In this document: in pieces, positions 18,112-62,600 of the stretch
Layout of the letters: every line of letters begins with the position of its first letter
Numbering within the stretch: the first letter of the stretch is position 1
DNA from: Rhynchonema sp. JSB1_4
Taxonomy: Eukaryota; Nematoda; Chromadorea; Monhysterida; Xyalidae
Assembly: GCA_030248065.1 (NCBI GenBank)
Contig: JASAMV010008599.1
Span: forward strand, 1-64,000
Reading direction: 5' to 3'
Length of the DNA: 64,000 nucleotides
Notes under the pieces: generated by a model
Database searches by the model: none
Seen by the model: only the letters and a program-made list of their open reading frames with translations
Told to the model about the DNA's origin: nothing
Made by a program: the position numbers and the translations under genes

Positions 18112-21100
18112 GTGGCAAGTGCTAAGCGCGAAAAGTTGACAAGAAGCATGCCCACAGTGTCAGCGAAACAAGTATCGCACACGGATGTCGAATCGACGGA
18201 GGACAAGGAGGTTTTTCATACAATGCTCAGGCTGGTCTCCACTCCCAGAAATATAACATGCATCAGCATCAGCAAACACACTGGACAGAATAATCTGCGT
18301 AGGCGTTAGTTTTTATGCACAACAAGAGAATTATTTTCAAAACATTTTCATGGATCGGATGTTATTGTAACTGAATATGCATATGCATACTTACCTAGGT
18401 CGAAATAACGCTTCGAAATGAAGAGCCAATTGGCAAAGGCGCATTCGGTCAAGTGTTTCGTGTGGACATGATATCACCAGTCACGTGCACTGTGGCCGTC
18501 AAACGGATCCGACATAATCAACACAAATACGTGAGTCTTAATTTAAGACGATCGTTCCACAAAAGAAGGAGATATGTTTGTGTTGTGATCAAGACCAGAG
18601 CTTCGGTCATTCACCCCCAGAAACCGACATAAATCAGGTCACTATGTGTGTGCATTCTATGATTCCCTACAGATAAAAATACGGTACATGTCGTGCTTTG
18701 TCGCGCTACTCAGAAAAATGGACACACCTGATACATACCAGGGAATCCGTGAAAGTCCCACGAGGTAAAAACAAACTACGCCAACACGAGCCCGATTTCG
18801 AAGGTGGTGCGTATTCAAAACTAATAGACAGAGAAAATCATCATGCTCCATTTTGTATCCTTCAACGTGTAACACTTCCCAAATCAGCAGCCACGTATGA
18901 ATGTTTCACTATTCTGCCAGCTGCGAAATCGGGCTCGTGTTGGCATAGCTTGCCTTTTACCCGATCTAGACATACCGTGTGCTGCAACTGCAACTCTCTT
19001 TGCCAACGCCTCTGGCAAACGAAGATCGCAAGACGAGCATGTGATAAATTTTTCGTGGGCTAACACGACAACCAACAAGAGTAGCACCGCAAAGTATTTA
19101 CAGTAGTCACGTTTTTATTTTGTAACGGCGGTCAACAGTTACCGATAATCAACGCAAAGCATTTGACTGTGGTATTTTGTGATTGACAGGAGCGCCAGAT
19201 TGACCTCTACCGTCGCATCCGCCATTCGTGTATCATCTGTCTGCTCTACTATTACCCGTACATTCTCGAATCGGAAATATGCTGGAATCTGGTGCTCGAG
19301 TACATGCCCACCACAGCATACGAACACTGGAAACTGCTGGTCGACAAACATCAGTTGCCCAGTGTGAAAACAATTAAGGTTGGTCACATCAGTCCAGCGG
19401 CGGATCTGACATTTGGTAAAGGAAGGGATTAAATCCAAAAAGCCATGTTTATCTGGCGCATGTCTCACTTTCGAAATCTTTTCATCTAAGATTGTTCAGA
19501 ATCAGGAGATTTTAAGTCAAATGCAATATGTACCAAATATGGCAATGCAAATTTTTGCACGCGCGACAGCCACGTTTGACGTAAAATTATCTGATTAAAA
19601 TTAAGCATCTGACACGAATTTTGGATTTTTGAAGTGTGTTTGTCCAGAGAAAATCCTGCGATTGAGGAGTCTTGTTCTCCGGGTGCGAAATGGTGTCCCC
19701 GGGGGGGGGGCAGTCCCACTTTGAACAAAGGGAGGCATCCCTGGATCCGCTGGTGCATCAGTTATTGTTTGATAGGCATTTGTCGAACGTCGAAAGTAGG
19801 GCATAATCACGGGACAACCGCTTGCGTTGTACTGGTGACCTGGCCAAGCAACCTACCAGCTTGCTGTGTGCGCATCGGCGATCAAGGACGCTGACAAAAT
19901 GAATGATGTTCCACCCGCACCGAGGCGCCAATGTAGCAACCAACCAGTAGCGTCGTTGAGAAATCGAAATTTTCCCATACCCAGCCCAATTTTCGGGAAA
20001 TTTCCCATACATACCCCCAGTGTTGGAGGTACTCTGGAGGGGGGATACCGACTGTACCGCGCTCGGAGAGGGGGATACCTACTGTTCCAGAGCCGATGGC
20101 CTGGGGGGTTATGTACCCAGGGGGGTTTGGGGGGTTAGGTTTTGGGGTGAAAATTTTTTATGTGTTTATTATGTGTGGAATCGTGTGAAAACGTAGTATT
20201 TGCGCGCGTAGCGCGCGAATTTCGGGTAATTTGAGGTAAAAACCACTGATTTTGCACTAATTTTGGCCAGTTTGTTCAAAAATTGGCACCTTTGGGGCAA
20301 AATCGGGGGGATACCTACTGTACCGGGGTGAAAATCGGGGGGGGGGATACCTACTGTACCATGCCAAACATCGGGGGGATACCTACTGTACCAGGCGAGG
20401 GGGGATACCTACTGCACTGGGGGGCTACCCCCCAAACCCCCCACCTCCAACACTGCATGCCCCCAAAAATCAAAAATTTCCCTTACCAGGGGGGGTTTCT
20501 CCAAAAATTCAAAAAATTCCCACAGTCTAAAGGTGCTTAAAACAGAGTTTTTTTGCGGCAGCAAGCGATTCTTGACATTTTCAGGCGGAAAATGGTCAAT
20601 TTTGGTACTTCTCGGGGTCAAAAAGTCATTTCTTAGGGGTGCTTGTTCCAAAAGTGAAAAATTCCCCATAGCCCCGGCCGATTTCCCATACCCCATACCC
20701 ATACGTTAGGGGTGGGTAACCAACTGACGTTGCAGATTTGGATGTGCCAATTATTCGGGGCACTCAATTACCTGCATTCGTTAGCGATTTGTCATCGCGA
20801 CGTAAAACCGGAAAATTTGCTCGTCGACCCGACAATCGATCGACTGAAGCTGGGCGATTTCGGATCGGCAAAGGTGCTCACCGCTGAGAAGGAGCATTCC
20901 ACCTATCAGGTTGTTGGTGTTCTTAGTGGTCGGTGTTCACATGTGATGCAGAATGTTTGTGCCAAGAACAAGTTAGGTGTGTAGATTTCGTGCAAGGCAT
21001 CGGTCCTGTGTGACTCTAGTTCAATGCAAGACAAATTTGTATTACATCGTTTTGCCTTTTTGTTATTGGCATGCCTTTTTTGTTATTGGCAGAAAACCAT

Positions 21101-22161
21101 CCATTTCCAGGTAACGCGTTACTATCGCGCGCCTGAGCTTCTACTCGGCAACTCGCAGTACAATGTGTCGGTGGACGTCTGGGCCAGTGGATGCATACTG
21201 TATGAATTGATAACAGGTTGGTATATCTTGACCAAGTCTTTACTTTTTAATTTCAATTTGTTCCATGGTCAACCAGGTAAAGTGCTGTGGCCGGGCAGAT
21301 GCACGCGCGAACAGCTGCAGTTGATCACACAAGTGATGGGCACGCCGACCGAAATGGAATTGAAAGTTAGCTGGATAAACTTTTTGGTATATACATATTG
21401 TATATGTTGTTCTCGCGTACAAAAACGGTTTTCCTGAAAAAAAACACGAAAGAACGTTTGTTTCAAGCGTTCCATGGCTGTCGAAAAAAACGAAGAAAAG
21501 CCGGGCGGACTCGGTCCCGAAAATTTTTTTTCAATAGTTCGGCAAGTTTCGGAATAAGGGGCGACTTTTTTTCAAGCCCCGAATCAGTCGCGGTAAAATT
21601 CTCTGTAATTGCTTGCTTTTGGCATAGCAGAACAACAACTATTATGAAACACATGCGCGGTGTCAGTAATGCACAAAATATGTGCCCATAAATGCTTGAT
21701 TTGGGTTCCCCTATGCTTATACACTTACGGCTCTTTATCGGTTTTTCGTTTTTAAGGAACCGGTTCTTCGGCACTGTGAGAAAATGCGGAAGGTCTAGTT
21801 TTTGAACATTTCAGGAAATCATGCCCGCACCAGACCAGCGCACCGTGCAAACCAAAGCGCCACCGACATTCGAGCCGGGAATCGAACCCGTGCTTTTGAC
21901 TCAGGTTTGTATTGAATATCGCATTTGACAACCGTTGCGCCAAGATATTGTCAAACAAATGTTTCATTTGGATAGAGAATGAAAAATCTGGACACGGATG
22001 CATCGTGCGCCGACCTGGTGAGCAGCATTCTCACGTACGCGCCATCGAAACGGCTCGAAGCGAGCGCGTGTCTCAAACACGAATTCCTGCGATCCGTGCA
22101 AACCGAGTCGTTGGATGCGGTGATTCTTAGGGACGGTAGCACGGTGTCGTTGCTGCTCTAA
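18112..22161 (+). CDS. Divergent GSK3-like serine/threonine protein kinase
   Basis: A CMGC-group kinase closest to GSK3/Shaggy. Exons: 18111-18210 (ends [15 protein letters not shown], like the EVSYTDTK lead-in of GSK3), about 18400-18531 (P-loop [16 protein letters not shown]), about 19190-19378, about 20733-20908 ([22 protein letters not shown]), 21110-21213 ([13 protein letters not shown], activation-loop Tyr kept), 21279-21365 ([11 protein letters not shown]), about 21814-21904 and 21963-22161. The stop is TAA at 22159-22161. All catalytic residues (VAVK Lys, HRD Asp, DFG Asp, APE) are present. The position aligning with GSK3-beta Arg96, part of the primed-substrate pocket, reads Tyr. About 350 residues are visible; the first exon is not identified. 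A 1.3-kb intron carries nested MITEs. Confidence 0.88.
18771..18955. mobile_element. MITE with CAAACTACGCCAACACGAGC ends
   Basis: About 32-bp inverted ends: CAAACTACGCCAACACGAGC and the complement ending in GGGCTCGTGTTGGC. Internal TGAAACATTC and CATCATGATTTTCTC-type blocks are shared with copies at 25497, 28181 and 28366. It lies in a GSK3-like intron. Confidence 0.8.
19950..20704. mobile_element. CGTTGAGAAATCG MITE interrupted by a CAGTGTTGGAGG MITE
   Basis: The outer copy has GTCGTTGAGAAATCG and TATGGGAAATTT-type repeats like 14468-14890. It is split by an element at 20018-20455 with CAGTGTTGGAGGTACTC and ACCTCCAACACTG ends. Flanks of the inner element are CATACCCC/CATGCCCC (7 of 8). The inner element carries GGTACAGTAGGTATCCCC repeats and the GC palindrome at 20201-20218. 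Confidence 0.83.
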
Positions 22162-29500: not shown

Positions 29501-32500
29501 CAGGCGGCAGGCCGTCAAGCTCGTCCGCGTCTGTAATTCAGTGGAAATTTCTCAGTCAGCTTTGGAAGGAGAACATGGACTGAAATTCAAAGAGAACAAA
29601 CTCACTTCCCATACCAACGAAATCGCCCTGGAATCCAGCTTGATAGCCCCGTTTTGTCGGTGGAATGATCGTTGGCTTGCTATCGTTCGGAATTGGCTTG
29701 CCAAGCTGTTGGTGCAATTTCGTCGTCTGCAACATCACAAACTGTCTACTGTTATCAGTGACAAATGAAACGGTCGTCAGAATTTGCGAAATTTTGGTGT
29801 CCACTCCAAAATTTATTGTCATCAAATCGGAACCCCTCCAAACGACTGGACGGACTCCATTACGGAATGAACTTGACGTGTCTCTCCCCAAATAAGCTGC
29901 GGTTCACGTAACACATGGACATAATTACAACAGCTTCTGGATAACTTGTCACCACAACTACAGGCGCTCAAACCATTGCTTCACTCGGTGAGGGGGCGTC
30001 CACCTTCTCACCCTTTCCTGTCCTGGTTTTGTATTTATTTTTCATCCCGTAACTTGCACACCCTGCTTTGTATTTATTTTCATGTCCGTAAACTCTACAC
30101 CCGGTCTTGTAATTATGCTTCTTTCACTTAATCTTCTTATTTATGTAGTATTGAGTTGGTGCTGACGCAATAAACTAACTAACTAAGGGCGAACTTAGGT
30201 TCAATCCGGAATCCGGAAACCGGAACTGGTTTGCATACAAAAATACAAAACATTTCCGGACTCCGGAAATATTTCCGGAAAACGCAGAAAATTTACATGC
30301 AAAAATAATGCGTTTTCCGGAAATATTTCCGGATTCCGGATTCAACCTAAGTCCGCCCTAACGGAATGAACTTGGACTGAAAGCCACATTTGTAATAAAT
30401 GGGAATATCAAAGGTAAGACACATAAACCCAAGAAGCATGAACATTTTCAAACTACAGCGACGACCTCATTATTGTCGAACAGACAGTATGCGACCGTAT
30501 ACGGCGGTCTCGTTCGATAAGCATTTACGTTAGCCTGGGGACACCAGCTACTTCGCTAAATACGTGGCACAACGAAGTGACGGACAACCTATACTTGCGT
30601 ATTTTTCCGCAAAATATATTTTTGGAAAAAAAACGTTTTTTTCCGAAAAAAACCGTTTTTTTCAAATATTTTTCCAGTACTTAAGGATACCCATGGTCCA
30701 AAAATACCTATTTTGGAGAAAATTTTGTCGGGAAATGGCCTGAAACATGCTAAAATGCACATAGAGATTAAAAAGTGCTCATTTTGAACTGTTAGCACCG
30801 AGTTACATTAGTTTTAACAACATCCTTTCGTAACCCTTGAAAATATTTCGGAAATTTTTGGAAAAAAACCGTTTTTGTTCCAAAAGTTGCCACTTGGAAA
30901 AATTTTCGGAAAAATAAAAACGTATTTTTCCGGGCCTCGAAAAAAACGGTTTTTTTTCGGTTTGTTCCCGAAAAAAACGGTTTTTTTCCGGCCCGCAAGT
31001 ATAGGACAACCAACAACCCATCAACTGTTCTGGACTGTTGACAATATGAGCTGATGCCAATATGCCCTTCAAACTCGACATTGCCGTCTACAGGTGGAAT
31101 TATAGTTGTCCGCGCGGACAGCGCGAACAACAGAAAATTGTTGGGCTGTGTTTCTGCATGCGTCTGTGAAATTGTTCACATTCTCATAAAATGGATTAAA
31201 GATAATCAGAACTATCCCTCAATCAGACTTTAAAATTAATAAGTGCGACAGCGATACACAAAAATTCAAGTGTTCGTCGCGGACAAAAAGTGTTCGCCGC
31301 GAACAAAATTGACGAAGTTGAAAAAATTTAACTTTTTTGGCAAAATTTCAATGTCAAAATTTTGATCAGAACTAGTAATTAATTGATGCACAGAATCATT
31401 CGAAGCTCATACATGCCATTCTCAGTACACTTCTGCACACTACACTTGAGCAGCAGCATCTTCCAGCCTCAAAAGTGTTCGCGGCTCTGTTCGCGAGCAA
31501 ATTCTCTGTTGTCCAGTTTTTCCATGTTATTCAACAAAAAATGCGTTTTGTGCTCTTGTTTTGTTTCAACAGATCAGACGCAACACAGACTCCCGAAACG
31601 TTGCTAAATCACAGAATAGGGCTGCAACGTGCGGCCTCACGCTGTGCAGTTGTTCGCGCTGTCCGCGCGGACAACTATAATTCCACCTTTACGTTGACGA
31701 GGATTACTGCACAATTTTCAGTTTCTGCTAACATTTCCTGTGATCTGTTCTGATGTCATTGATCTTTCTCTTTTTGGCGCTTTATGTAGCTCTTGTTTGC
31801 TGCAGTTTTGTTATAACTAGTGTTGTAACTAATTTTTATTTCCGTCATTGTCCCACCCGGTCTTGTAACCATTCTTTCATAACTAATTTACCAGCACGGT
31901 TTTATGCGTCATTGGAGTGCAATAAAACAACAAGACACAAGTAACACACCCTCAAATGTTTGAGTCCCCTGATGTGTGCCTGATAGGTGTCGTTGCCAGT
32001 GCAGGTCACTTCACACAAGTCGCATCTGTACGATGTACGGCTGCTGCTGCCGATCTGTTGTTTCTCAGCCTCCAATTGTTGCACCCGTTTCTTGTGTCGC
32101 ATGCCTTGCATGTGCTCTTGGTAGGTCTGCAACAATGAGTGACATGATATCAATGGGAATGGGTTGAAATGAATGACAAGCTCAACTTCCTCAACAACAG
32201 GCACAGAATACAACCAGTTAGCGAATATCGCCCACCTGATCACCAGCACAACTGATCTTGCACGCGTCACAGTAGTGTTGTGGCAATTGTTGACGTTCCC
32301 GTTTTTCACCGAAATCACCACGACCGCGTCCACGACCTCGGAATCCACCGCCGCGGCCACCTCGGTCGTCACGGGGACCTGAAATGAACATTTGGTGCAG
32401 CAACAGCAAGGTGACCATTTTTTACATTCTTCATGCTCTTTACTTATCCATTTTCATTTTTCCATCCCCTTTGCGTACTTGAGTACAGCGCTTTGTACTC

Positions 32501-39900: not shown

Positions 39901-40459
39901 ACAACCTCTAATGCCACACTGGTGGTTGTGTGTCTTACAGCACAACACAGCTGTAGGTTCAGCGCTGCCCCCAAAGTTGAAGTACAGTACAACAAAAGCA
40001 GCAGTAACAGCCAGCAAGCACCAGGATGATCTTCTTGGCTTAGCTGTTCATCGAATCCACGGGGAGGCAGAGTCACAGTGCTGCATAGAGGTGTTGTCTG
40101 TGGTTGTTATAAAGTCAACTAGGTACCGCACACAGATGCCTTGCGTTTGTTGGCTGCTTCCAGTGGCATTTCACAAACATTCAAAACATTCACATTTTGT
40201 TCGGAACATTGTCCCACTCGTTTCGCTCACTGACCATCGCAAGTGCCTTCATTCGTACATTATGACGACAGCCATTTACTACCTGGGCGATAAGTGACAA
40301 AATACAATAAACTAAGCCCTCGCATTTGCCCTCAATCGGATAGAAAAAAGGACGCGAAACAGCATTCTACTCATTCCTTCAGGACGGCCAGTTCCCACTC
40401 GAGTATATTGAAATCCCGACCAAGTGCAACAACAATCGGAATAATCGTGTTTCATCAAC
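36937..40459. other. Intergenic region between ZFR and the repeat-protein gene
   Basis: The two genes diverge here. I find no exon with a recognisable family and no clear RNA gene. The longest open frame (38717-39145, +) has no supporting features. The region should hold both promoters. Confidence 0.4.
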
Positions 40460-43400
40460 ATGAGCGCAGCGCGTCCACCGAGCCCGGAATCGGAGATCCC
40501 GAAAATCGGTGAGTTTCCTTGCGTGGCTCAGTCATTCAATTCATCAATTCGACCCATTCGTCAATCAATAGTGAATAACAAGTGCACAAGCACGCAAACA
40601 TACTGGAGGACATTTACAGGGTTTGCGGACATTGAGCGCACTGAATCCTCGCCAGTGGACGATGCTCGATTGGAGAAGGCGACGGAGATGGCTGCCCCCG
40701 AATCCGGACGCATTTCACCTGATTTGGATCTGCCATTCAAGGCCAAGGAACTCATCAAAGGTGCGTGCATTGCATAACAAAGCAAAGTTAGTGCAGGTTC
40801 ACTAAATATCACTGACTGCAGATTCGAAGAGCCAACCGGTGCGGGACGTGCACGAACGAACCGAATCGAGTCCGGTGGAGACTGACCGCGACTGCGAGGC
40901 CGACGCGACATATGCGCTGTATCTGGCAACGTTACCCAAAATCTCGGCGATCATGGCAGAAAAACGAAAGCAATCGCTCAAACCACAACGACCACCGGCC
41001 AGTTACGACGCGTACTTGGCTATGTTGCCTCGAACGCCACAAAGCGAGGACCCGGCGGCCGCGGCCAAAGCACAACCGTTGGAGCAATTGGCATCGTATG
41101 ATGCATACCTGGCCTGCATGCCCCATTTCCTGAATCCCGATGTGGCGAAGCCTGTCGTCGCTGAGCAAGAGCCGCAGCCGCTCAGCTATGATTCATACGT
41201 CAAACTGCTGCCAAAGTTACAAGCAGCGAAATCGATTGAAGCTGAGGCGACCGCCCATTGGTTGTATCAAGGCTACATGGCGACCATGCCGTCCTTAATT
41301 CCGAGCAAGCGACCACCAACACCGGAGTCCGAAATACCCACAAGTCCGTTTCACACGCATTGAACTTACAAGTAACAAAAATGCAATATTTACTGTATGT
41401 ACCATTTACTCCCTCAGGCATTGAGCGCACTGAATCCAGTCCAGTTGAAGACCGTACTATGGATCCAGTCAAAGATCCCCAGGCACCTTTACCACCACGT
41501 GCACCCAGTCCAGAATCTGAAATGCCAGAGCAGCTGGGTAAGTTGGCATTTCACGGGTTTTCCGGTATTGCTTGGGAACGCACTTTGTGTGACACTACTG
41601 AAGTGCACACATACAGAATAAAGTCTCAGCTACGCACTTACACAGCGTAGCTTGTGCATCAAAAGGCACGTCAACCAGCAGATTTAGCGCGGCGCGGTTT
41701 AGTTCATCAGTCAAAGTTTTGTTGATTTGTTTGTAGGTAAGATGAATCGCGACCCTCACGATCGCACAGAGTCATCACCGATCGACCAAGAAGTGGCCAA
41801 TGTGCTGGAATCAAAATCGGATGCCAAATTTGAAATGGATCGCATATCGCCCGACTTGGAGTTACCTTTCAAAGCGATCGATCCTATCAAAGGTCAGAGA
41901 ACGACGTGCAAAGGTCACTCAGTTAAAGTGAAACATTCTGTTTACCTCTCATCTACTGCTTTTGCCGAATTACATAAAAATCACCCCTTTTGATTTTGCA
42001 AACGAATTCTTTCGAGTAATCAATATTTTCTTTGCTTTAACAAGCCCAACAAGCAAAATACCCGGATTCCTTTTCACTAATTGCTCACATTATCCAAGCA
42101 CAGAAGCTTTAAGCCAATGATACCAGTTCCTACCCTACAGAGACGGACCCCGATTGCGATGCCGGACGAACGCAGTCGAGTCCGATTGACCAAGCCCCAA
42201 CAGCCCAAACGGCATACAATCTGTATTTAGCGACGTTGCCTAAATTCAAGAAAAACCAGCCAGTACAATACGATCGTCTTGTCACCTACGATTCGTATCT
42301 GAAGATGATCCCCAGCTTCAAAACACTCGCAAGGGCCGATCTGGAGAACCAGGAAGCCGCAGCGTTACCAGCAGCCAATTCATACGAAGCGTATCTGGCC
42401 TGTATCCCGCATTTCATGTCCCAAAGCGAGTATAGTGCAGCGAGTGCTCCCACACCCGATCGACCGCTGGCCTATGATGCGTACTTGAAAATGATGCCAA
42501 GCTTCCGACCGGTATCCCCATTGCAACCAAGTGATGAAAACAAACAAGAACGACCACAGGCGTCCTACGATTCGTATTTGTCCGTGATTCCCCGATTTAT
42601 GGGTCAAGCGCAAGCCACACCACTTGGACCACACTTGCCGCGCGTCAAATCCTACGAACAGTACTTGATGACCATACCAACATTTGGTGGTCGTACACCG
42701 TCACCTGATTCAGAAATGGCTAACATCAGTAAGAAACCCTGCATTTTTATGTTTATCCAACCTGAGCTCATCGCTTTTCGTTTAACATTCCCAAATTCTA
42801 TTTTCACTCACAGTCTTCTAAAATGGCAGACTAAAATGACCTTCAACGAAACAGTTGATCCCAACTTTCAGAAGCAAGCGCGCCTGAAGGAGCAATCGGA
42901 CAGTCGAGCTCCAGTCCAATCGATCAAGCACCAATCGACCGAATTCAGGCCTATTCATCGTATCTGGCGACTGTATCAACCAGACCAGGTAGAGCTGGAC
43001 ATTTCCAGGGGAAAACTAGTGAACACGGAATCGTTTGTTGGTCGCACAATGCTTTTTTTGGTCTCAGCTACATCAGGCGGGCCGCTGCCAATCATCAGCG
43101 GGGTGACGAAGGATAGCAAACTGTTGGTCGCCGGAATGGAAGGCAGTAGTGCTCCAGGTATGTACACATGATGCTGAATGCGAGCCCATACAACCAACGT
43201 AATAGCGCATACGAATTGTTGTCCACAATAGAGTTTGTGAAATAAACTATGATGACGATCCGATCCAATGATCAACTTCTTCAGGCAAGATGGCTGATGG
43301 CGCACACAGCGTGACGAAGGATGGGCAAATGCTCATCTCAGGTGTTCAAGAGGCAGCGACTGTCGGCGTAGCTGTCGGTGGCGGTGCAGCTGCAGCTGCT

Positions 43401-46400
43401 GCTCTGAGCGGTACATGCGCCAACACAACAGCAACAGTGACAGATGACCGAGAAATCGTCGGCGGTATCACTAAATCCGGTGACGCCTTAATCGCTGGCA
43501 TTGAACGTCCACCATCAACGCCGACCAGCGGCAGCACGATTGTTGCCGGAGTGACACGAGACAATGTGGCTATTGTCGGTGCTATGGCAAAGGTTAGTTG
43601 ATGACAAGTTTCATCCAGATAAGGGTGATTGAAGACAATATACTCCTGTCATCGTTTCGTACTTTCCAGAAAGAGCCAAAGCAAGCAGCTGACGACGCCT
43701 ACAATATGTATTTGGCGACGTTGCCGAAATTCAAGGAATTGGTTACCGTGGCGCCAGCTGCTGCAGCGGTCGCGTCAAAAGAGCCGCCGTCATATTCGGC
43801 CTACTTGGCGATGCTACCGAAATTCAAGGGCGACGACGCGCAACAGCAGGCTCCCACAGCAGAGACCGTGGCCACCGTCGAGCGTCTGGCATCCTACGAT
43901 ACCTACGTATCGCTGTTGCCACACTTCACCGCAGCAGCCAAAGTCCCAGCCGATAAACCGGCTGAGAATCAACCCATCAGCTACGACTCGTACTTGCAGT
44001 TGTTGCCTTCGTTCAAGTCAGATGCACCTGCGGCTGCACCACCCGCACCGCCCCAAGAAGCAACGAATCTCTATCAATCGTACTTGGCATGTCTTCCGGC
44101 ATTCTCTAAGCCGACAGCTGCACCGCCAAAAACGGTAGGTGGACAAACAATCACAATACACCGAATCCTAGATCATGTGCTGTATGAATTGATTTCCCAA
44201 CACTTTTTTGTGCTCATCTGCAGACATCGTCACCATCGACTGCACCCAAGTCCACAGAAGAAGTCTACAACATGTACCTGGCCACCCTTCCTAAATTCAA
44301 AGAAATGGCTGCCAACACTCCAGCGGCTACCCAAGCACCGACCGAGCCACCGTCATACCAAGCCTATTTGTCGATGCTGCCTTCGTTCAAGACACAGGAT
44401 CCGAAGCTGCAGACACAGGAGAGTGTCGAGGCTGTAGAACGGCTGGCGTCCTATGACACGTATATGTCGCTCTTGCCGCATTTCACTGCCACAGCAAAAG
44501 CACCAGCAGAGAACCCGGGGGCCGCCGTCCAACCGATCAGTTACGATTCGTACTTACAGTTGCTGCCATCGTTCAAGTCAGATGCACCAGCTAAGGCATC
44601 CGCTGCACCGCCACCAGAGGATGCAAGCGCGTATCTGTCATACATGGCCACTCTGCCAGCCGTGCCAAAAGCAGCCACAACAACCGCAGCTGTAAGTTTT
44701 GAACTGTTATGTTTGTGATGTACACAAATTGGTTTTACACACAGAAAGGAACACAATGTCGCTGCCACTTTAGGCTTCGTCGGCACCAGCGCCACCGCCT
44801 GAACAATCCTACAGCATGTACTTGGCAACGTTGCCCCACTTCAAAGCAGCGACTACCCAAATGGGACCCAGTGCACCGCAGTCGCAAGAGCCGCCAACGT
44901 ACGCGGCCTACCTGTCCATGTTGCCGACATTCAAGTCGAACGACCCAAAACAACAGCAGACAGCCGAAGCCATCGAGGAAGCTGAGCGCATGGCTTCCTA
45001 CGACACCTACATGTCGTTGTTGCCCCACTTCTCTGTGGCTGCCAAGACACCGGCCCACGCCGCCAGCGCTGCCGCTGAGCCAATCAGCTACGACTCGTAT
45101 CTGCAGTTGCTGCCATCATTCAAGTCAGGCGCCGCAGCTGCACCAGCCGAACCCCCACCAGAGGCGGCCAACTTGTACGCCGCATACCTGGCAACGCTCC
45201 CACAAACGCCCAAGTCGAAATCTGCGCGGACCCCGACCGATGACCGCGAGATTGTGAGTGCCGTCACTCATGACGGACATGCTCTGATCGGAGCAATCAC
45301 CCGTCCGCCACCGACACCAACAAGCGCTAACGAAGTGATCGGTTGCGTCACACGCGACAACGTGCCTGTCATTGATGCGTTGACTGGTGCACTTAGCATG
45401 CACGCAGGTATCCAGTCGTCGAAACCGACTCCAGGTGGCAAGCAGACCAGTCAAACCACTGGCGGCGGAGCGACTCCCCCAACTGGCATCCCATCAGCTC
45501 CATCACCATCCAGTCCTTCCAAGCCTGGCTTTATACAAACAAAGGGCACAGCGGCAGCCAAAGGAGTCATACAACGGACCAGTGGATCACAGGAACAAGA
45601 GCCACCAAAGACGCCACCCATACTTACCACCACCAACATGATATCGTTGGAAAATCATGCCCCATCTGCATCCGAGCTAAAGGTGCCCGACATCCCAACA
45701 CCAACCAACACGCCAGAGCGAGTGTTAGAAGTGAGTTTTCCAGAGTTGCAGCATTTTAATTAGTGACATTATATCCATAACGCAAAACCTAAAACTTCTT
45801 CTAGGACTTCGACGATACCGAAGGTCGGCAAAAGCGTCAACAACAGCTTATCGATGCCGCAGCTGAAAAGGCACGTATGCTTGTCGAAGAAGGCAAAAGC
45901 GACGCGGCAGCCATCATTGCGGGTGGGAGAAATCAGAGCGAAAAACCAGTGCCGAAGACGACGATCATGATGGTTGGAAATACCAAAGAATCGGCTGCAA
46001 ATGCCGATCAGTCATCCAACAGCACACTGGATGATGCCAAAAAGTACGCAGCAGGTATTGGTGCAGCTGGCGTGGCTGCAGGTGCAGGTCTGCTCGCTGG
46101 CGCAAAGGCGATGTCAGAAGATGCCAGTCAATCAGCGCAAAACAAAGCAGACGATGTCAAGAAAGGCGCTGCGAATCTGGCAGAAGATGCGAAGCAATCA
46201 GCTGCTAACACCTACCAAGCGATCAGCAACAAAGCAGAAGAAGCAAGGCAGTTCGGTGATGGTCTGTTTGGCAGTGCAAAGGAAGCAGCTGCCGACGCCG
46301 GCCACACAGTCAAAAACCAAGCAGAAGCAACACACAAGCAAATTAAAGAAGCAATCGGCGACACGAGTAAGTCCGTTACAATCAAAGCCGAAGATTCCAA

Positions 46401-47079
46401 GAAATTCTTCGGTGGTGGCTTACTAAGCAGCACCAAGGGAGCATTGAGCGATGCCAGCCAAACGGTTGAATACCACACAGAAGAGACAAAGAAAATGGGC
46501 AACGGCGCGCTCACCGATGCGAGTGCTACGGTGAAAAGCACCAAAGATCAGGCGAAACAACTGGGCACTGAGCTGCTGAACGAAGGTAAACAGTCCAAGG
46601 ATACTGTAGTGGCACAAGGCAAACGTGCCGTCGAAACGGTCAACCTGACCTTTGAACGCACGACCGGTGCTGCGCAGGACGAAGCCAAGAAACAAGTCGA
46701 GTCCGTCAATCTTCAGTTCGAAAAAGTCAACACACCGAAAACAGACGAGCCAAGCAAACCCGAAGAGATCGCCATGCAACCGCAGTCGCATGGCTGGGAG
46801 TCACCGGGCACCACGACCACGACAGTCAAGTTATCAGCCGGCGCCACGCACAACAACGGGTTGCCACCGTTCCCGGTCGACGAGGTTGTGGTCGACACTG
46901 ATCGATTCGGATCACAAGAGAATCGTCAATCGCGCACTTGGCCACGTCACGGCCGCATCGAGCCACCACCGGAGGACAGTCAGCGACGTGCCGCCAGCGA
47001 AGGACGAGAAGTGGTGCCAAAAATCAGCAACTTCAAGCGGCTCCGAGATCGCATTCGTCAATTTTGTACGATTTTGTGA
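40460..47079 (+). CDS. Unrecognised large repeat protein with LEA-like tail and CaaX box
   Basis: I do not recognise this family. ATG at 40460 (MSAARPPSPESEIPK). Exons with matching phases: 40460-40508, 40620-40759, 40822-41341, 41419-41538, 41736-41893, 42140-42731, 42872-42988, 43077-43157, 43285-43592, 43671-44135, 44223-44691, 44775-45730 and 45806-47079, about 1,750 residues. The protein has 27 copies of an 11-12-residue motif, consensus (S/A)Y-x-x-Y-L-x-x-L-P-x-F (for example SYDSYLQLLPSF). It also has five RTESSP(V/I)(D/E) linkers, SPESEIP and SPDL-LPFK motifs, and about six V-T-x-D-x-x-x-(L/I)-(I/V) units. The last exon is Ala/Lys/Asp/Gln-rich and amphipathic (SAQNKADDVKKGAANLAEDA), like group 3 LEA proteins. 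It ends FKRLRDRIRQFCTIL-stop, a polybasic stretch plus CaaX box; X=Leu predicts geranylgeranylation. No signal peptide or transmembrane segment is seen. AATAAA follows at 47125. Confidence 0.85.
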
Positions 47080-47124: not shown

Positions 47125-47130
47125 AATAAA
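47125..47130 (+). promoter_or_regulatory. Polyadenylation signal AATAAA
   Basis: AATAAA lies 46 bp after the stop codon of the repeat-protein gene, in an A/T-rich context. Confidence 0.6.
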
Positions 47131-49279: not shown

Positions 49280-52200
49280 CTAGCGCGGGATCGGCATTTT
49301 ATCGATCATCTCGTGCATCTCCTTGTACAAATCCTGGTAATCGTCATGCGGCCGGATCAACACCATAATAGACGGTCGGCGGTGACCTAAAAGGAGTGTA
49401 TAGCAGTGTTTTATTTAGCAATTTTTATAATAATAGAGTAGTCTAAAGACACACAGAATAAAAAGCGATAAAATGATTCTTGAAAAATCGTTATCAAAAT
49501 AATCACAACAGTACCTGAAGCCAAACCCAAATCGTGTTTACTTGGCGTGTAGCAGTAAGGCAGACCGGCTTCTTCACAAATACCAGCGATGTGCGCGTAA
49601 ATGTCGACTGGCGTAACGTCGCCTGAAATTACGGACAACTATTTTTTATAGTCCACCGCGGACCGCGCAATGAGTGAAAAATAATTCAAACACGCAAAAG
49701 TTGACGCAAGCTTTAGATGCAAACCTGCGAGGATAACAATGCCCTTCTCCTGCTTCCTGAGCGCGCGTTGCACATCGACAATGCCCTGACGCAACTGGTA
49801 CTTGATCTTGGAGGATTTTCTGATCAACTTGTAGATCTTTTTTGCCTGTTTTCGACTGGCCAAGGGCTGCAAATGTGAATGTTATGTTCGGGGAACATTT
49901 ACCGTGAAACACACAAGAAAGCAGTGCAGTGGCAGGCCAAGTGGTGCAGGGTACCCTGGGGGCTGAATCTGGAGGGTTAGCACTAGCAGGGTACCGCCTG
50001 CCCAGAGTGGTGCAGGCTGCAGGGTAACCCCCTAAAGCTGACAAAAGGGCGTTTTTGCATGCAATTTTGCTGCAAAAATGGGCAAAAAGGCTGTTTTTGT
50101 AATTTTGGCGTGAAATTGGCCGAAAAAAGACCTTTTGACACGTGTTTTCGCGCGTGGCGCGCGATGTTTGGTAAGCCGGAGGTCGAAAAACCCCCACACT
50201 TACAAATATAATGGTGCATGGCTAGGGCACCATTTGGGCGGGCTCATCTATCTGTCGTCAACAACTTCTGAAGGTGAGGACTATCTATCGTCAAGAGCAA
50301 TGGGCACCAAAAGGATATTTTTGACTCAAAATATGTATTTTTTATCCCAAATAGGCAAAAAATCGTGCGCTACGCGCGAATTTAGTACATAGCATTATTA
50401 TTTAGTTCGTGCAGTGCACATAGATTCTCTGTGCTGTGCTTTTTGTGTACCCCACCGTCCAGTGTTGGAGGTGGGGGGTGGGGGTACCCCAGTACAGTAG
50501 GTTTCCCCCTCGCCTGGTACAGTAGCTATCCCCCCGATGTTTGGCATGGTACAGTAGGTATCCCCACCCCCGATTTTTACCCCGGTACAGTAGGTATCCT
50601 CCGATTTTGCCCCAAAAGTGCCAATTTTTGACCAAAATTAGTGCAAAATCAGTGGTTTTAACTCAAGTTACCCAAAATTCGAAATACAACGTTTCACACG
50701 ATTCCACACACAAAAAAAACATTAAAATTTTTCACCCAAAAACCTAACCCCGCCAACCCCCTCTAGGGAGTGTAGTTCCAGGGGGAGGAGGACCCCCCTA
50801 AGATACACTAATTTCTCCGACCAAGGTACACTAGTACACTAATGTCCTCTCCGGGTACACTAACTTCCCAAATTTTTGCCTAAGATAGGCATTTTTAGCC
50901 CTAAAATGGGCAATTTTTAGGCAAAAATGTGTGATTTTAGGTCAATGTTGTCAAAAGTTGCCAAAATACCCTTTCTTGAAGACTTTTTTCCCAAAAGGGG
51001 CAAAAATGGGTCAAATTTTCAACCTCAAAAGGTGACTTTTTCCTGAATTTGGGTCTTCCCCCCAGGGAGGTGCACTAATTTCCCCGCCGGACCAGGAACT
51101 ACAGTGCCTCTAGGCAGTGCAGTGGCAGGCAAATGGTTGCAAGGTACCGTTGGGGGGATGGATCCAGATGGTTGCAACGTACCCCCCTACCCAGCCTCCG
51201 GAAGGTTGCAAGGTACCCCTGAGGTCCGAAAAAAGGGTGTTTTTGCATGCATTATACTGCAAATTTGGCCCAAAAATTGGTACTTTTTTGCATTTTGGCC
51301 GAAAATTTGCCTAAAATACCTATTATATGGAGGTTTGCGCACGGAGCGCGCGATTTTTGGGGTTTTGAGGTCGAAAAACACCCATTTTGGCTATAAAACC
51401 ACAAATTGATGGTTGCAAGGTGCCCTCCGGGGCGGTTGCAAGGCCCAAGGGGTGGTTGCAAGGTACCTACTCCTTAGGGGGGAATCCCCCCATCCCCCCG
51501 CCACTACACTGCCTCTAGGTACCAACCTCCCAGGCCATCGCCTGTGGTACGGGTGGGGTAGAAAATCCCGAAAAAAAAATCCCGAAAAAAAATCCCGAAA
51601 GAAAAATCCCGAAAAATAAAAATCCCGAAAAAAAATCCCGAAAAGCAAAAATCCCGAAAAATGAAATTGAGGAAAAATACAAAGTTTAAGGTGCAGAAAG
51701 GGGTATTCATGTAGTTGGAGTCCATAATTTGGGCAATGGATCAGTTGGGGCTCAAGATATTGAAATTCTCGTTCGGTCATGTCTTCCTGGCTGGCAGCCT
51801 AAGCCTAAGCCTAACCCTGAACGAAGGCCTGGACGTTGTATTTTTGTGGATAGTTCCTTTACGTGGACAGGTCTTCCTATCTGGCAGCCTAAGCCTAAGC
51901 CTAAAAGAAACCCTGAGCATGTGTGTTTTTATTGATGTTTCCTTCGTATGAACAGGTCTTCCTGGCTGGCAGCCTAAGCCTAAGCCTAATCCTGAATGCA
52001 AGCCTGAGCACCAACTACATGAATGCCAACTTCTGACAAAAAAATTTGGTCCATTTCTACACCTTTTTATTTTTCGGGATTTTTTCGGGATTTTTGCTTT
52101 TCGGGATTTTTTTTTCGGGGTTTTTCCTTTCGGGATTTTTTTCGGGATTTTTTTTTCGGGATTTTCGACGGCCACCTCTGGTACAGTGGGTATCCCCTCT

Positions 52201-52995: not shown

Positions 52996-53078
52996 AGCAC
53001 GGTGGCCGAGTGGTTAAGGCGTTGGACTTAAGTTCCAATGGGCGTAAGTCCGCGTGGGTTCGAACCCCACCCGTGCTA
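52996..53078 (+). tRNA. tRNA-Leu (anticodon TAA)
   Basis: The acceptor stem AGCACGG pairs with CCGTGCT, discriminator A. Box A-type TGGCCGAGTGG, anticodon stem TTGGA/TCCAA with loop CTTAAGT, and a long class II variable arm as expected for Leu. T-arm GTGGG-TTCGAAC-CCCAC. There is no intron. A T-run (CTCTTTTT near 53099) can serve as the Pol III terminator. It lies between NHP2 and Nopp140. Confidence 0.95.
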
Positions 53079-53660: not shown

Positions 53661-56600
53661 TCAATCGTCATCTTGAAATTTAATCGAATGCACGCCCGTG
53701 TCAATATTGCCGCCTGTGTAACTGCCACGTTTCTTTTTCGTTTTCTCATGCCGAAAGTTCTTGCCTTGAACGGTGGCAAAGTCGCGCGCCGCTTTCTGAC
53801 CCCAGCTATCGCCTTGCTGAACACCGGATGAGCACAGTTTAGTGATGAAGCATAAAATCGTTGGGAAAAGCAGCACTTACTTTAGAATGAAATGAATTGT
53901 CTCTGAATTTCGGATCAAGTTGCACCTTAGACGGATCAACGCGACGAAACGGTGCATTTTGCTGAATAAAAATAAGACGGCATGGCCTGCCCATAAGTTT
54001 TCAAGGTCGAATGAATAAAACAGTGAAACTTACACATATGCAACCCAGATCCTATCAAAGAACAAAAAACTACGAACCTTCTTGCCACTCGGCTGCTTCT
54101 CCGCGCTCTTTGTCGTTTTCTGAAAGTAAACAAAGCATCAGAGCCCGAAATGTTAGGTCACATCAGCAATTTCAACCAACGGTCTCTGGTTCCGCATTCG
54201 AGTCACTTCCACCGGCATGTCCATTCGTCAAAGGGGTTGCTGGCTCGGCTTGTGGCTTTGTCTTCCCAGACGAATTCTTCGTTCTTGCTTTTCCATCATC
54301 TAAATAAAGCCAAGTTTACGTAAATTGATTAAAGAATTCATTTGAAACCCTGAATATCTGAATTTGACCAGCATGACGGAAGACAGACCACTTACCCGAA
54401 TCGCTGCTGCTCGACGATGAGTCCTCCGAGCTTTTCCCCTTCTTCTTCTCCGTTTTCTTCTTGTTCTGTGCTTTCGCTGCAGCACGAGTGGCCGGCTTCT
54501 TTGCATCTTCAAAAAATTCTCGAATTTCGATCTTGAACATATAATGGTTGTTGCACAATAAAAAATACTTTACCGTTGTTATCCGAGCTGTCACTACTGC
54601 TTGAGCCGCTCGACTTTGCCTTGTTCTTCGCAGCAGTGGCAGGTTTTGGTGCAGCTTTGACCACTTTGGCGGGCGTCGGTTTCTTAGCTTCAGCCTCATC
54701 GCTGCTACTGCTTGAGCTTGACGAACTCTCTTTCGGACGTTTACTGGCTGCCGGTGGCTTGGCTGTGGACGTCGTTTGTGGTTTCTTTGACGAAATATTA
54801 GCGGCTGAAATAATTTATTTGAAAATATGTGTTCAACTTATGAACGCTGCTTTTTCATTCACCTGGTTTTCCTGCCTTATCGTCATCCGAGGAATCACTT
54901 GAACTGCTCGAGTCTTTCTTCGCTTGTGCCTTTGGCGCTGGTGTCGACTTCGGAGTCGCTTTTGCCGGCGTCGGTTTCTTCTTGTCTAAACAACGTGTCA
55001 GTTGCTCACAAGACACCAGGACAAAGAAAACTCTGGCACATATGTATAGCTTGCAATAACATTAACCAGCATCGGTATCCGACGAACTATCGGAGCTACT
55101 AGACGAATCCTTCTTCTTCGCAGCAGGAGCAGCCTTCTTGACAGCCGGTGGAGTCGGTTTTGCAGCAGCTGGCTTTTTCTTCGCATCGTCATCTGCAAAA
55201 CATGGCAATGTCTGTACACTATGTAGTGTCCTGCTGCATTAAAACCGTTTGTTAACCTGAGGAATCTGAGCTAGAAGTCGAATCTGCCTTCTTCTGTTCA
55301 GCAGCCTTCGATTTCGCAACCGCTGTTGGTTTTGTTGCTGCGGGCGTCGGTTTTGATTTGTCGTCATCTGAATATTTGCAACGGAATGAATGCCGCGGCA
55401 AGTTTACTCAGTGTCAAGCACAACAACGCTTCTCACACCCAGCTGACCTGATGAGTCACTGGAGTCTGAAGAGCTGTCTGCTTTCGCTTTCGACTGTGCA
55501 ACCTTAGCAGGACCCTTGGCGGCCGGAGCAGTTTTTGCGTTAGCCGTAGCTTTTGAACTCGCCTTGGTGTCTTCTTCTGAAACGAAGAAGAGCCGTTTTC
55601 GCCGGTTGGAAAGAAACTCAGTTTTGGCGGCCGTGCTTGAATTTGTTTTATCGTCATCTATAGAAAGGGAACGGAAAAAAGTATTTTCGTGACAAACACC
55701 AAAAGTCTTAACAACCTGAAGAGTCGCTGGAATCAGACGAGCTGTCCTTCTTCTTGCTCGCAGCCAGCTTCTTCGGAGATGCAGCAATGGGCTTGGTTTT
55801 TGTCTTCGGGTCTTCGCTGTCGCTGGCACTTGAATCCGAAGACGAATCCTTTGCCTTGGTTGCTGGTTTGCCAGGTGCTTTGACTGGGGTCGTTGTTGCC
55901 TTCGCTGGTGAAGCGGTCTTTCCGGCTGCCGCTCGTTTATCTGCTGAAACGCGTCATTAATCATCATAAGATTAACAGGCAGGCAGGCTGTGACACAGAT
56001 GGCTCATACAGGCCCAAACTGACCAGACGAATCGGAATCTGATGAGTCACTTGATGACGATTCTTGCTTCTTTGTCGCAGCCACCTTCTGTTCCTTCTTG
56101 ACCGGACTCGATGCCGCAGCAACAGGCTTCTTCTTCGCAGCGTCGTCGTCACTCGAACTATCACTTGATGAACTGTCAGCCTTCTTCGTCGTCGGGGTGA
56201 GCACGGCACTCTTCTTCGCTGGCGAACCTGCAAAACACGTTTTCGGGGGTGTTCCGGTTTTGTGGAGTTTTCGACGGCCACCGCAAAACAGCCGCTGATG
56301 ATATGATCAGTGATTGAATACCATAAGAACTAGGAATATCAAAATTAAACACCATACAGGAGACCACTGTCTGCGGCAAGCTGCACAAGCAATTGACTAT
56401 CGAAACACTCGAACTTGTGCGGCAGCAAATGGCAAAGGCCCACCTGGTTTGACGGTAGTGGGCGGTGTTTTGACTTTCTTCTTCTTGTCATCCGAGTCCG
56501 ACGAGCTACTACCACTGCTGCTGCTGCTGGATGATGCCTTTTTCTTTGCTGCTTTGGCCGCCGTCAGTTTGGGGCTGGGTTTTGGTGGCGGTGGCTTGGG

Positions 56601-59600: not shown

Positions 59601-62600
59601 TGGTCCGGCGCGGCGGTTAGTGTACCTCCCTGGGGGGAGGGGGGAAGACCCAAATTGAGGAAAAAGTCACTTTTTGAGGTAGAAAATTTGACCGATTTTT
59701 GCCCCTTTTTGGAAAAAAGTTCTCAATAAAAAGGGTATTTTGGCGACTTTTGACATCACTGACCTGAAAATCACCCATTTTAGGCCTAAAAACGCCCATT
59801 TTAGGCCGGAAAAATGCCTATTTTAGGCAAAAGTTGAGGCGGTTAGTGTACCTGGCGCGGCGGTTAGTGTACTTGTGTACCTTGGTCGCGGCGGTTAGTG
59901 TACCTTAGGGGGGGACCCCCTCTCCCCCAGGAACCACATAGCCTGTGCACAACAATCAAGCCTTAATACACTACTGTGCAGGGATTTTTAGAGGTCGCAA
60001 TCGGGCTCGGGCCGGGCCGGCAAAACCCGGCCCGATTGCGACCCCTGGATTTTACTTAGGGGCAGTGTTGGAGGTGGGGGGGGGTTGGGGGGGGCTCGCC
60101 CCCCCCAATACAGTAGGTAAGGTATCCCCCCTCGCCTGGTACAGTAGGTATCCCCCCGATGTTTGGCATGGTACAGTAGGTATCCCCCCCCCGATTTTCA
60201 CCCCGGTACAGTAGGTATCCCCCCCGATTTTGCCCCAAAAGTGCCAATTTTTGACCAAAATGGCCGAAATTAGTGCAAAATCAGTGTTTTTTACCTCAAA
60301 TTACCCGAAATTCGCGCGCTACGCGCGCAAATACTACGTTTTCACACGATTCCACACATAATAAACACATAAAAAATTTTCACCCCAAAACCTAACCCCC
60401 CCCCCCAACCCCCCCCCCCCAAACCCCCCCTAGGTACATAACCCCCCCCCACGCCATCGGCTCTGGTACAGTAGGTATCCCCCCTCTCCGAGCGCGGTAC
60501 AGTAGGTATCCCCCCCGATGTTTGGCATGGTACAGTAGGTATCCCCCCCGATTTTCACCCCGGTACAGTAGGTATCCCCCCCGATTTTGCCCCAAAAGTG
60601 CCAATTTTTGACCAAAATGGGCGAAATTAGTGCAAAATCAGTGTTTTTTACCTCAAATTACCCGAAATTCGCGCGCTACGCGCGCAAATACTACGTTTTC
60701 ACACGATTCCACACATAATAAACACATAAAAAATTTTCACCCCAAAACCTAACCCCCCCCCAACCCCCCCTAGGTACATAACCCCCCCCAGGCCTAGGGT
60801 TAGAGAGATGTCGGGTGTCGGCTGTCGGGTGTCGGGTGTCGGGTGCCAAAAAAGTGTAGGTGTCGGGTGTCGGGTGTCGGCTACCCCCAGATGTCGGGTG
60901 TCGGGTTTTTTTGGACCCGACACCCGACAGCCGACACCCGACACTTACGGTTCAAAACATCAGTTTTGCTGAGAGAAGAATTTTGAGAGAAAATTTTCTT
61001 CGGACCAAATGTTTCCGAAGACGCAGAATGTGACATTTTGGTGTCTATTTCGTGTGAAAAAACTTGAATTCAGTAACCTGAGCCAAAAAATTGCACTAAT
61101 GATGCAAATGAGCAAAAATTTGCCTGTTTTTGGTCCAAAAACTGGTGTCGGGTGTCGGGTTTTTTTCAAAAACTAGATGTCGGGTGTCGGGTTTTTTTGC
61201 AACTGTCGGGTGTCGGGTGTCGGCTTTTTTTCTCAGATGTCGGGTGTCGGGTGTCGGGTACTTTCAGATGTCGGGTGTCGGCTGTCGGGTGTCGGGTACC
61301 CCCCCGACCTCTAACCCTACCCAGGCCATCGGCTCTGGTACAGTAGGTATCCCCCCCTCTCCGAGCGCGGTACAGTAGGTATCCCCCCCTCCAGAGTACC
61401 TCCAACACTGCTTAGGGGTGCTCTATCCCGGGGGCTCTATTAATTCACTATTGTGGGGGCTGATTTAGGTTTTTACGGTAGGCATTTTAAGGCACAAAAT
61501 TAATGATTTTTAGGTCAATGTTGTTAAAAATGTTCAAAATACCCTTTTTATTGAGATTTTTTCCAAAAAAAGGAAAAATGGCTGGCACACTGCACACTGG
61601 TACAGTACAGTACATGGCCGATATTTTGTTTCAGCTTAATGTTCACGTCAATGCTTGAATGACAGTTCACACCAGTGTTGGAGGTACTCTGGAGGGGGGA
61701 TACCTACTGTACCGCGCTCGGAGAGGGGGGATACCTACTGTACCAGAGCCGATGGCCTGGGGGGGTTATGTACCTACCTAGGGGGGGTTGGGGGGGGTTG
61801 GGGGGGCTAGGTTTTTGGGTGAAAATTTTTAATGTGTTTATTATGTGTGGAATGGTGTGACTGTGAAAACGTGGTATTTGCGCGCGGCGAATTTTGGGTA
61901 ATTTGAGGTAAAAACCACTGATTTTACAGTAATTTTGGCCATTTTGGTCAAAAATTGGCACTTTTGGGGCAAAATCGGGGGGATACCTACCTACTGTACC
62001 GGGGTGAAAATCGGGGGGGGGGATACCGTAAAAACCTAAATAGAAGGGGGGCTCTATTAACTCACTGACCCCATTTTGGGGGGCTCTATTACGGGGGGGC
62101 TCTATTCCGGGGGGGCTTCTATTAATTCACTGACCCAAACCGGAAAAAATTGTTCCCAGAAATACCCCTAAAAACCCCAAAAAAGGGGTTTGAAAGGATG
62201 TTTTTTCGCTTGTAATTGCATTTATTCGTGTCTATTCGTCAATAAGAGGCGTATTATGTGCTCTGAACGAACAACAAACGTGCATAAATGTACCTGTGCA
62301 CCACTATCAAGCCTTAATGCACTGCAGTATAGGGGATGTTACTTAGGGGGGCTCTTTTCCGGGGGGGGGGGGCTCTATTAATTCACTGACCCCTTTTTGG
62401 GGGGCTGTATTGCGGGGGGGGGGCTCTATTCCGGGGGGGCTGTATTTAGGTTTTTACGGTACCTCCTAGTACTGTACCAAGCCAAACATCGGGGCAGGGT
62501 AGTACTTGGGGGGGTGGGGGGGGGTCCCCCCCAAATTCATCTATCTATCGTCAACACTTTTTGATTTCATCTATCTATCGTCAACACTTATGGGCAAATC

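Follow-up and report, generated by a model that had tools for sequence, protein, structure and literature searches.

A predicted gene with 27 copies of a tyrosine motif

The stretch of DNA analysed here (the window) covers positions 1 to 64,000 of contig JASAMV010008599.1 from the nematode Rhynchonema sp. JSB1_4 (GCA_030248065.1), whose assembly comprises 203.9 Mb in 5747 contigs. The plus strand, on which all features of the gene given below lie, carries a gene at 40460-47079 with 13 exons and 12 introns, a single-gene model obtained by splice-site prediction, which would encode a protein of 1748 amino acids with many copies of a short motif of consensus S-Y-D-(S/A)-Y-L-x-x-L-P-x-F-K. A preliminary description, made from the sequence alone, had counted 27 copies of such a motif, and all of them were recovered: five in exon 3, six in exon 6, one in exon 7, and five each in exons 10, 11, and 12. 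The proposed form holds for the 26 copies that follow the strict pattern Y-x-x-Y-[LMV]-x-x-[LIMV]-P, as compared to a mean of 0.005 strict copies when the residues of the protein were shuffled 20,000 times, while the 27th (YSSYLATVSTR, exon 7) is degenerate, with both Pro and Phe missing. Both Tyr positions are occupied in 27 of 27 copies, Pro in 26, and the Phe of position 11 in 20; Asp or Glu directly follows the first Tyr in 14 of the 27. The protein contains 59 tyrosines, 54 of which are motif tyrosines. Outside the gene, all six frames of the window yielded a single match to the relaxed motif pattern (at 15995), and a DNA pattern for the motif stayed near background genome-wide (251 + 252 matches versus 215 + 217 in a reversed control).

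The copies are more tightly spaced than the 30-45 residues initially claimed, as 23 of the 26 spacings fall between 24 and 35 residues (mean 30.4) and the remaining three amount to 52, 143, and 152. The linkers had been characterized as rich in Pro, Ala, Gln, and Glu, to which Lys has to be added: the 23 short linkers (423 residues) contain Ala (24%), Pro (16%), Glu (8.5%), Gln (8.0%), and Lys (7.6%). Nor do the motifs form a regular single series, since those of exons 3, 10, 11, and 12 are organized in five-motif modules, an order from which exons 6 and 7 depart.

Exon 1 (40460..40508) provides the start ATG (MSAARPPSPESEIPKI), 15 bases downstream of an in-frame TAA stop (40442-40444). Exon 2 (40620..40760) carries an RTESSP site (site 1, 40637..40654) and a RISPDLDLPFKAKELIK block, and exon 3 (40822..41343) a second such site (40857..40874) followed by module 1 (motifs 1-5 in slots M1-M5, 40908..41297; located, as the other motifs, by pattern search). 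A third RTESSP site (41426..41443) is found in exon 4 (41418..41537), and a fourth (41763..41780) in exon 5 (41737..41892) together with a RISPDLELPFKAIDPIK block. Exon 6 (42141..42728) combines an RTQSSP site (site 5, 42167..42184) with six motifs in unclean slot order (motifs 6-11, 42212..42685). Exon 7 (42872..42988), which when inspected by eye looks like the start of exon 6 in decayed form, holds the degenerate motif 12 (42949..42984). Units of another type were recognized by eye in exon 8 (43077..43157; one, IIxGVTKD-type) and exon 9 (43285..43592; three, (I/V)xxVT(K/R)-type). Exons 10 (43670..44134) and 11 (44224..44691), both of phase 0-0, encode modules 2 (motifs 13-17, M1-M5, 43697..44104) and 3 (motifs 18-22, M1-M5, 44263..44664). 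Exon 12 (44774..45730) encodes module 4 (motifs 23-27, M1-M5, 44807..45208), two (I/V)xxVTxD units akin to those of exon 9 (45236..45397, ends set by eye), and a Pro/Ser-rich stretch. The C-terminal exon 13 (45805..47079) ends with a TGA stop (47077-47079), 45 bases before a possible polyadenylation signal (AATAAA, 47125..47130).

All 12 introns are bounded by GT-AG, and the joined exons keep an unbroken frame whose sole stop is the last codon, even if the donor of exon 3 (GTCCGT) was judged weak by eye. Introns 1-8 are in phase 1 and introns 9-12 in phase 0. Exons 2-8 (1-1) and 10-12 (0-0) are thus symmetric, which would allow exon duplication with the frame left intact. In exons 8, 9, and 12 together, six units centred on (I/V)xxxVT(K/R/H) could be discerned by eye. 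Those of exons 9 and 12 share 49% identity over the match at 45179-45382 and found no further match in the genome at E values up to 1, which ties the two halves of the gene together. A stop-free frame at 42113-43171 (plus strand) extends from exon 6 to exon 8 across introns 6 and 7 and across exon 7, which uses a different frame; it is probably due to chance, and intron retention would nonetheless leave the frame open.

A five-motif module shared with a second gene

Exons 3, 10, 11, and 12 each encode one module, which amounts to 20 motifs in five recognizable slots: M1 (YxxYLATLP), M2 (YxAYLxM(L/M)P), M3 (SYDxYxxxxPHF), M4 (SYDSYxxLLP), and M5 (YxxYxAxxP). A single module with its motifs in the same order was found in a second gene of this genome (contig C4337, approximately 107.4-109.5 kb, minus strand), so that speaking of a family, as the preliminary description did, turned out to be appropriate. 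There, the module is flanked by RTESSPVD and RISPD blocks resembling those of exons 2 and 5, and is interrupted by two introns that are missing from exon 3 of the window gene (as read from the sequence). Genome searches with exons 12 and 3 revealed no third motif locus at E values up to 1 among the best candidates scored. Downstream of the second gene (C4337, approximately 99-104 kb, minus strand), Pro/Gln-rich frames are followed by several hydrophobic stretches.

The order of the slots has been kept between distant modules. When the modules of exon 3 and the second gene were compared to those of exons 10-12 (six pairs), matching slots were 62% identical and non-matching ones 48%. Among the 120 possible slot orders, the collinear one ranked first in five of seven module pairs, with ties (1 and 7) in two of these, and second in the remaining two. 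Motifs also changed more slowly than linkers. Nonsynonymous divergence (dN) among exons 10, 11, and 12 was 0.12-0.17 in motifs and 0.39-0.47 in linkers, with a proportion of synonymous differences (pS) of 0.60-0.81; for exon 3 versus the second gene, it was 0.17 in motifs (pS 0.94) and 0.44 in linkers (pS 0.78), and in the six more distant pairs 0.31-0.41 and 0.89-1.16, respectively. Across these comparisons, dN in motifs is about one third of that in linkers, and synonymous sites are near or at saturation. Given this saturation, the modules appear to be ancient and not the product of misassembly, with motifs held at the protein level. Docking motifs on a flexible chain would be expected to show such a contrast.

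Both Tyr positions are invariant in all 32 motifs (27 in the window gene and five in the second gene). As the strict pattern itself asked for Tyr, a relaxed search was added that also accepted Phe, Trp, or His in place of either Tyr; neither the protein nor the second module yielded a further copy. The Phe position is variable in comparison (Phe in 22 of the 32, seven different residues). Since a purely greasy contact would accept Phe, and none was found, we infer that the Tyr hydroxyl is needed, either to form a hydrogen bond or to be phosphorylated; the motifs share descent, and their 64 Tyr positions are thus not independent.

Predicted helices, C-terminal tail, and candidate phosphorylation sites

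Structure prediction of a motif tandem, which had been proposed as a check, placed a helix at each of five motifs, at low confidence. The AlphaFold model of exon 12 (built together with five related modules or units) has the first Tyr of the motifs at residues 13, 43, 76, 106, and 135, and helices at 9-18, 43-49, 76-81, 106-112, and 129-140. In 10-residue blocks, the predicted local distance difference test (pLDDT) of these helices is 68-75, as compared to a mean of 51.0 for the model, whose predicted template modelling score is 0.16. In all five motifs tried, the hydrophobic moment for an alpha helix exceeded that for a beta strand. In the model, each motif appears as a short helix of its own and not as part of a packed fold.

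The C-terminal exon encodes a Pro-free segment of approximately 237 residues with 11/3 amphipathic periodicity (46024..46734, residues 1398-1634). Its hydrophobicity peaks at 3.66 residues per turn (11/3) with a power of 15.2, the next peak being 3.1; 1000 shuffles reached at most 10.5, and none of 1000 shuffles within 11-residue blocks attained the real value. The phase is held within approximately 100 degrees along the segment, corresponding to about 21 11-mers. Net charge is unevenly distributed over the 11 columns, with +5 in one and -8 and -7 in two others, and the tail is hydrophilic (grand average of hydropathy, GRAVY, of -0.79 over residues 1436-1634). A model from this single sequence predicts long helices at low confidence (mean pLDDT 53.5). 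The protein ends with KRLRDRIRQFCTIL, in which a basic segment (KRLRDRIRQF, 47035..47064) precedes the Cys of a CaaX-type end (CTIL, 47065..47076), with the stop codon directly after it. A CaaX box with Leu as last residue favours geranylgeranylation. The N-terminus is free of any stretch resembling a signal peptide (best 10-residue GRAVY 0.52 among the first 40 starts).

Towards the N-terminus, the five R-T-(E/Q)-S-S-P sites of exons 2-6 match the pattern R-[ST]-x-S-x-P, and RTESSP occurs four times in the reading frames of the second gene. We take these sites to resemble the 14-3-3 mode-1 motif (R-x-x-S-x-P) or sites of proline-directed kinases; from their sequence, they look like candidate phosphorylation-dependent sites.

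Searches for relatives

The description of the motif as undescribed was supported as far as the libraries searched reach, as no annotated family exceeded its cut-off in Pfam or NCBIfam. In Pfam, seven exon pieces, the whole spliced protein, and the second module all remained below cut-off, the sole family listed for the whole protein being DUF5702 (PF18960; E 0.0039, 16.7 bits versus a cut-off of 26). The best match of the seven exon pieces to NCBIfam, a bacterial and archaeal library, had an E value of 0.0056 (17.1 bits versus 124). Among sequences of the PDB, no relative of exon 12 or exon 13 was detected, and the motif profile had a lone match to an NADH-quinone oxidoreductase (E 1.3) that we judged to be due to chance. 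A set of 5.8 billion proteins, searched with no positive control, yielded nothing for exon 12, exon 13, and the module alignment at E values of 0.001, 0.001, and 0.01 among the 7997, 7994, and 7991 best candidates scored, respectively. None of 22 pattern matches in bacterial and archaeal contigs and none of 28 in viral contigs was confirmed, and plasmids contained no motif match. The motif strings had no match in the literature, and among the papers listed for nematode disordered, repeat, late embryogenesis abundant (LEA), CaaX, and 11-mer proteins, none dealt with this protein as judged by title and start of abstract. Nematode proteomes may hold an unnamed protein of this kind.

Kinship to SLBP, the histone stem-loop binding protein, was considered, because the second module had a sub-threshold Pfam match to its RNA-binding domain (PF15247; E 0.0056, 17.1 bits versus 27), and was not supported. 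The full protein of the window gene was not listed for this family at E values up to 1, and the motif profile scored -0.3 bits against the genome's own SLBP piece, a value reached by 26 of 2000 shuffles, whereas unrelated frames reach 10.3 bits overall and 6.0 in a single stretch. That SLBP frame contains SYQKYAEEVP, alike in Tyr, Tyr, and Pro, a likeness too faint to serve as evidence of kinship; the TPNK and RRSWD parts of SLBP are, by eye, missing from the repeats. Membership in the LEA family was not supported either, as neither exon 13 nor the full protein matched LEA_4 (PF02987) at E values up to 1. LEA_4 gave no match genome-wide at this threshold either, in a search in which no control rang and which therefore does not establish absence.

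A putative membrane-anchored docking scaffold

The picture shifts towards a membrane-anchored scaffold once the kept order of five motif kinds, the repeated RTxSSP sites, the 11/3 helix, and the CaaX-type end are taken into account, and a cytosolic location is suggested by the combination of an N-terminus without hydrophobic stretch and a CaaX-type C-terminus. We tentatively favour, at somewhat less than even chances, the interpretation that the gene product, if expressed as modelled, is a cytosolic, membrane-anchored, multivalent docking scaffold. A multivalent docking scaffold had already been put forward in the preliminary description, and this part of it has gained partial support from motifs that are conserved while linkers drift and from the short helices predicted at low confidence in exon 12.

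In such a scaffold, a long disordered chain would display 26-27 short amphipathic helices of consensus S-Y-D-x-Y-L-x-x-L-P-x-F, approximately 30 residues apart, 20 of which would belong to four copies of an ordered five-site module. Proline would cap each helix, whose two Tyr and two Leu residues, gathered on the same side, would meet a groove of a soluble partner, each helix docking one partner molecule. Both Tyr hydroxyls would be important, either to donate hydrogen bonds or to be phosphorylated. The 11/3 helix, followed by the basic segment and a CaaX-type end bearing a prenyl group, may tether the chain to a membrane or to a lipid surface, and phosphorylation at the N-terminal RTxSSP sites may gate the scaffold. 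The kept order of the five motif kinds suggests different partners or graded affinities. The most specific version of this proposal is a docking comb, in which an obligatory-Tyr helical motif (SYDxYLxxLPxF) is read by a still undiscovered adaptor, the five-site module has been copied whole, and a lipid-anchored chain gathers up to 27 partners under phosphorylation control from its far end; taken with all these parts, it is a possible but rather doubtful scenario.

Several points weigh against the scaffold interpretation, which is built on sequence and low-confidence models. The AlphaFold models of the exon 13 tail and of exon 12 stem from one and six sequences (mean pLDDT 53.5 and 51.0), and the latter has extra helices at 58-73, 83-86, and 203-206, the first of which falls within the linker that separates motifs 2 and 3. 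The six motifs of exon 6 correspond best to slots 1, 4, 3, 2, 4, and 1, and thus follow the module order in part only. The contrast in dN is partly circular since motif columns were picked for looking conserved, and linker dN may be inflated as linkers align less surely. The tail and CaaX end are known from the window gene alone, the second gene having been traced without reaching its C-terminus, and a CaaX end has a chance of approximately 2.5e-4, thus not nil, to arise on this composition. The low hydrophobicity of the tail means that it may not bind a membrane by itself. In 66-residue windows its 11/3 signal is 6.2, versus 8.7 in an unrelated frame of contig C4337 (by a measure uncorrected for variance); only the coherent length of the periodicity is exceptional.

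If true, this interpretation would provide a helical docking motif that is new and whose tyrosines are absolutely conserved, together with a natural example of very high and ordered valency, in which five distinct sites were copied as a unit toward 27. Such cases allow testing how valency and site order set assembly at membranes. It would also reveal a nematode protein family that is missing from the profile libraries searched, with a second, one-module gene for comparison.

Alternative interpretations

The alternative that survives best, unlikely as we consider it, is self-assembly of the sticker-and-spacer kind, in which the Tyr/Leu/Phe motifs would bind each other, and the chain would condense or gel at a membrane or on a lipid droplet. 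The even pitch, the Ala/Pro/Gln-rich spacers, the concentration of tyrosines within motifs (54 of 59), and the amphipathic character of the five motifs tried are all consistent with it. Yet generic stickers should allow exchange of Tyr for Phe, whereas none of the 64 Tyr positions has changed (in copies that share descent), and self-association needs no order of motif kinds, which has been kept here despite synonymous saturation.

The two absolute tyrosines without Phe, the acidic residue after the first Tyr in about half of the copies (14 of 27), and the many copies on a Pro-rich disordered chain could also be accounted for by a phosphotyrosine platform similar to the substrate domain of p130Cas (PMC3983058), whose phosphorylated motifs would recruit SH2 or PTB proteins at the membrane. 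This reading, which is likewise drawn from sequence, seems quite unlikely to us, as the conserved Leu, Leu, Pro, and Phe exceed what a kinase or SH2 site needs, and the motif is not YxxP.

It is improbable that the protein protects against stress or desiccation in the manner of LEA group 3, with the 11-mer tail as its working part and the motifs being secondary. The periodicity over approximately 237 hydrophilic, Pro-free residues fits such a role, and a long 11-mer protein, LEA-1, is described from C. elegans (PMC8670023); the tail has no LEA_4 match, however, and a protectant function would not hold 27 Tyr motifs tighter than their linkers.

We attribute an equally small probability to the locus representing two or more genes, or decayed exons, in which case there would be no single protein with 27 motifs. 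In its favour are the predicted nature of the exon joining, the switch of intron phase from 1 to 0 after intron 8, the decayed motif of exon 7, and the single module found in the second gene. On the other side stand the 12 canonical introns, the kept frame without premature stop, the recurrence of exon 9 units in exon 12, and the slower change of motifs than of linkers in exons 3, 10, 11, and 12.

Finally, a Tyr-crosslinked extracellular protein of cuticle or eggshell, evoked by Tyr-, Pro-, and Ala-rich repeats in a nematode genome with 57 matches to the cuticle-collagen N domain (none in 14 control genomes), is highly improbable given the lack of a hydrophobic N-terminus, the in-frame stop 15 bases upstream of the ATG, and the CaaX-type C-terminus.

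Comparison with known systems

Multivalent motif scaffolds as such are a known kind. The motif, the five-site module, and their combination with the 11/3 helix and the CaaX end are, judging from sequence, unmatched in the libraries searched. In p130Cas, many YxxP copies of the substrate domain recruit partners. This domain of p130Cas (BCAR1) is characterized in PMC3983058 as 306 residues long, Pro-rich, and intrinsically disordered, with tyrosine phosphorylation sites. The predicted protein is similar in having Tyr sites on a Pro-rich disordered chain, but its motif is YxxYLxxLPxF, with helix character and five-site order, instead of YxxP, and the Pfam scan of the whole protein contained no SH3 or Cas domain.

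The tail recalls perilipin 4 and alpha-synuclein in its unbroken 11-mer phase, low hydrophobicity, and uneven charge among the 11 positions (PMC5889406). In contrast to the conserved 33-mer of perilipin 4, its 11-mers are divergent, and they share one chain with a motif array and a CaaX-type end; no perilipin or synuclein match was listed by Pfam for the full protein. LEA-1 of C. elegans is likewise a long nematode protein with repeated 11-mers predicted to form amphipathic helices, and its isoform K counts 61 copies in 1397 amino acids (PMC8670023). As far as this description allows comparison, the window protein differs in having approximately 21 11-mers in one C-terminal segment, much of the rest being motif array.

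Two further systems resemble the motif itself. The transactivation helix of p53 (FxxLWxxLP), which binds the MDM2/SWIB groove, has the same hydrophobic spacing and closing Pro, and two SWIB domains exceed the cut-off in this genome. It differs by Phe in place of the absolute Tyr, and a membrane anchor is unlike an activator; no p53 match was listed by Pfam for the whole protein. Tandem WH2 and beta-thymosin repeats are short amphipathic helices that bind one partner each at a pitch of approximately 30 residues. Their LKKT/LKKV signature is not seen in the motif, and Pfam gave no WH2, thymosin, or RPEL match at E values up to 1, a search in which the HMMER filters may drop very short profiles.

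Other features of the window and genome

Apart from the motif gene, the window contains a partial protein kinase frame (20985-21434, plus strand; Pfam Pkinase, 43.4 bits) that is CDK-like by eye, and a zinc finger frame (31905-32453, minus strand; zf-met, 30.2 bits) resembling, by eye, the RNA-binding protein ZFR. Two minus-strand frames at 54319-54837 and 55407-56003 combine serine/acid runs with basic, Ala-rich stretches and are Nopp140-like by eye, with no Pfam match at E values up to 0.01. The canonical 22-base spliced leader SL1 had no exact match in the assembly, which may mean that this lineage departs from typical chromadoreans. A tRNA gene lies at 52996-53078 on the plus strand (Rfam RF00005, 63.1 bits). 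Minisatellite arrays with periods of 31-85 are located at 15921-16013, 51781-51989, 60446-60589, and 61144-61290, and minisatellite units containing TACC or TGTACC occur on several contigs among the matches listed.

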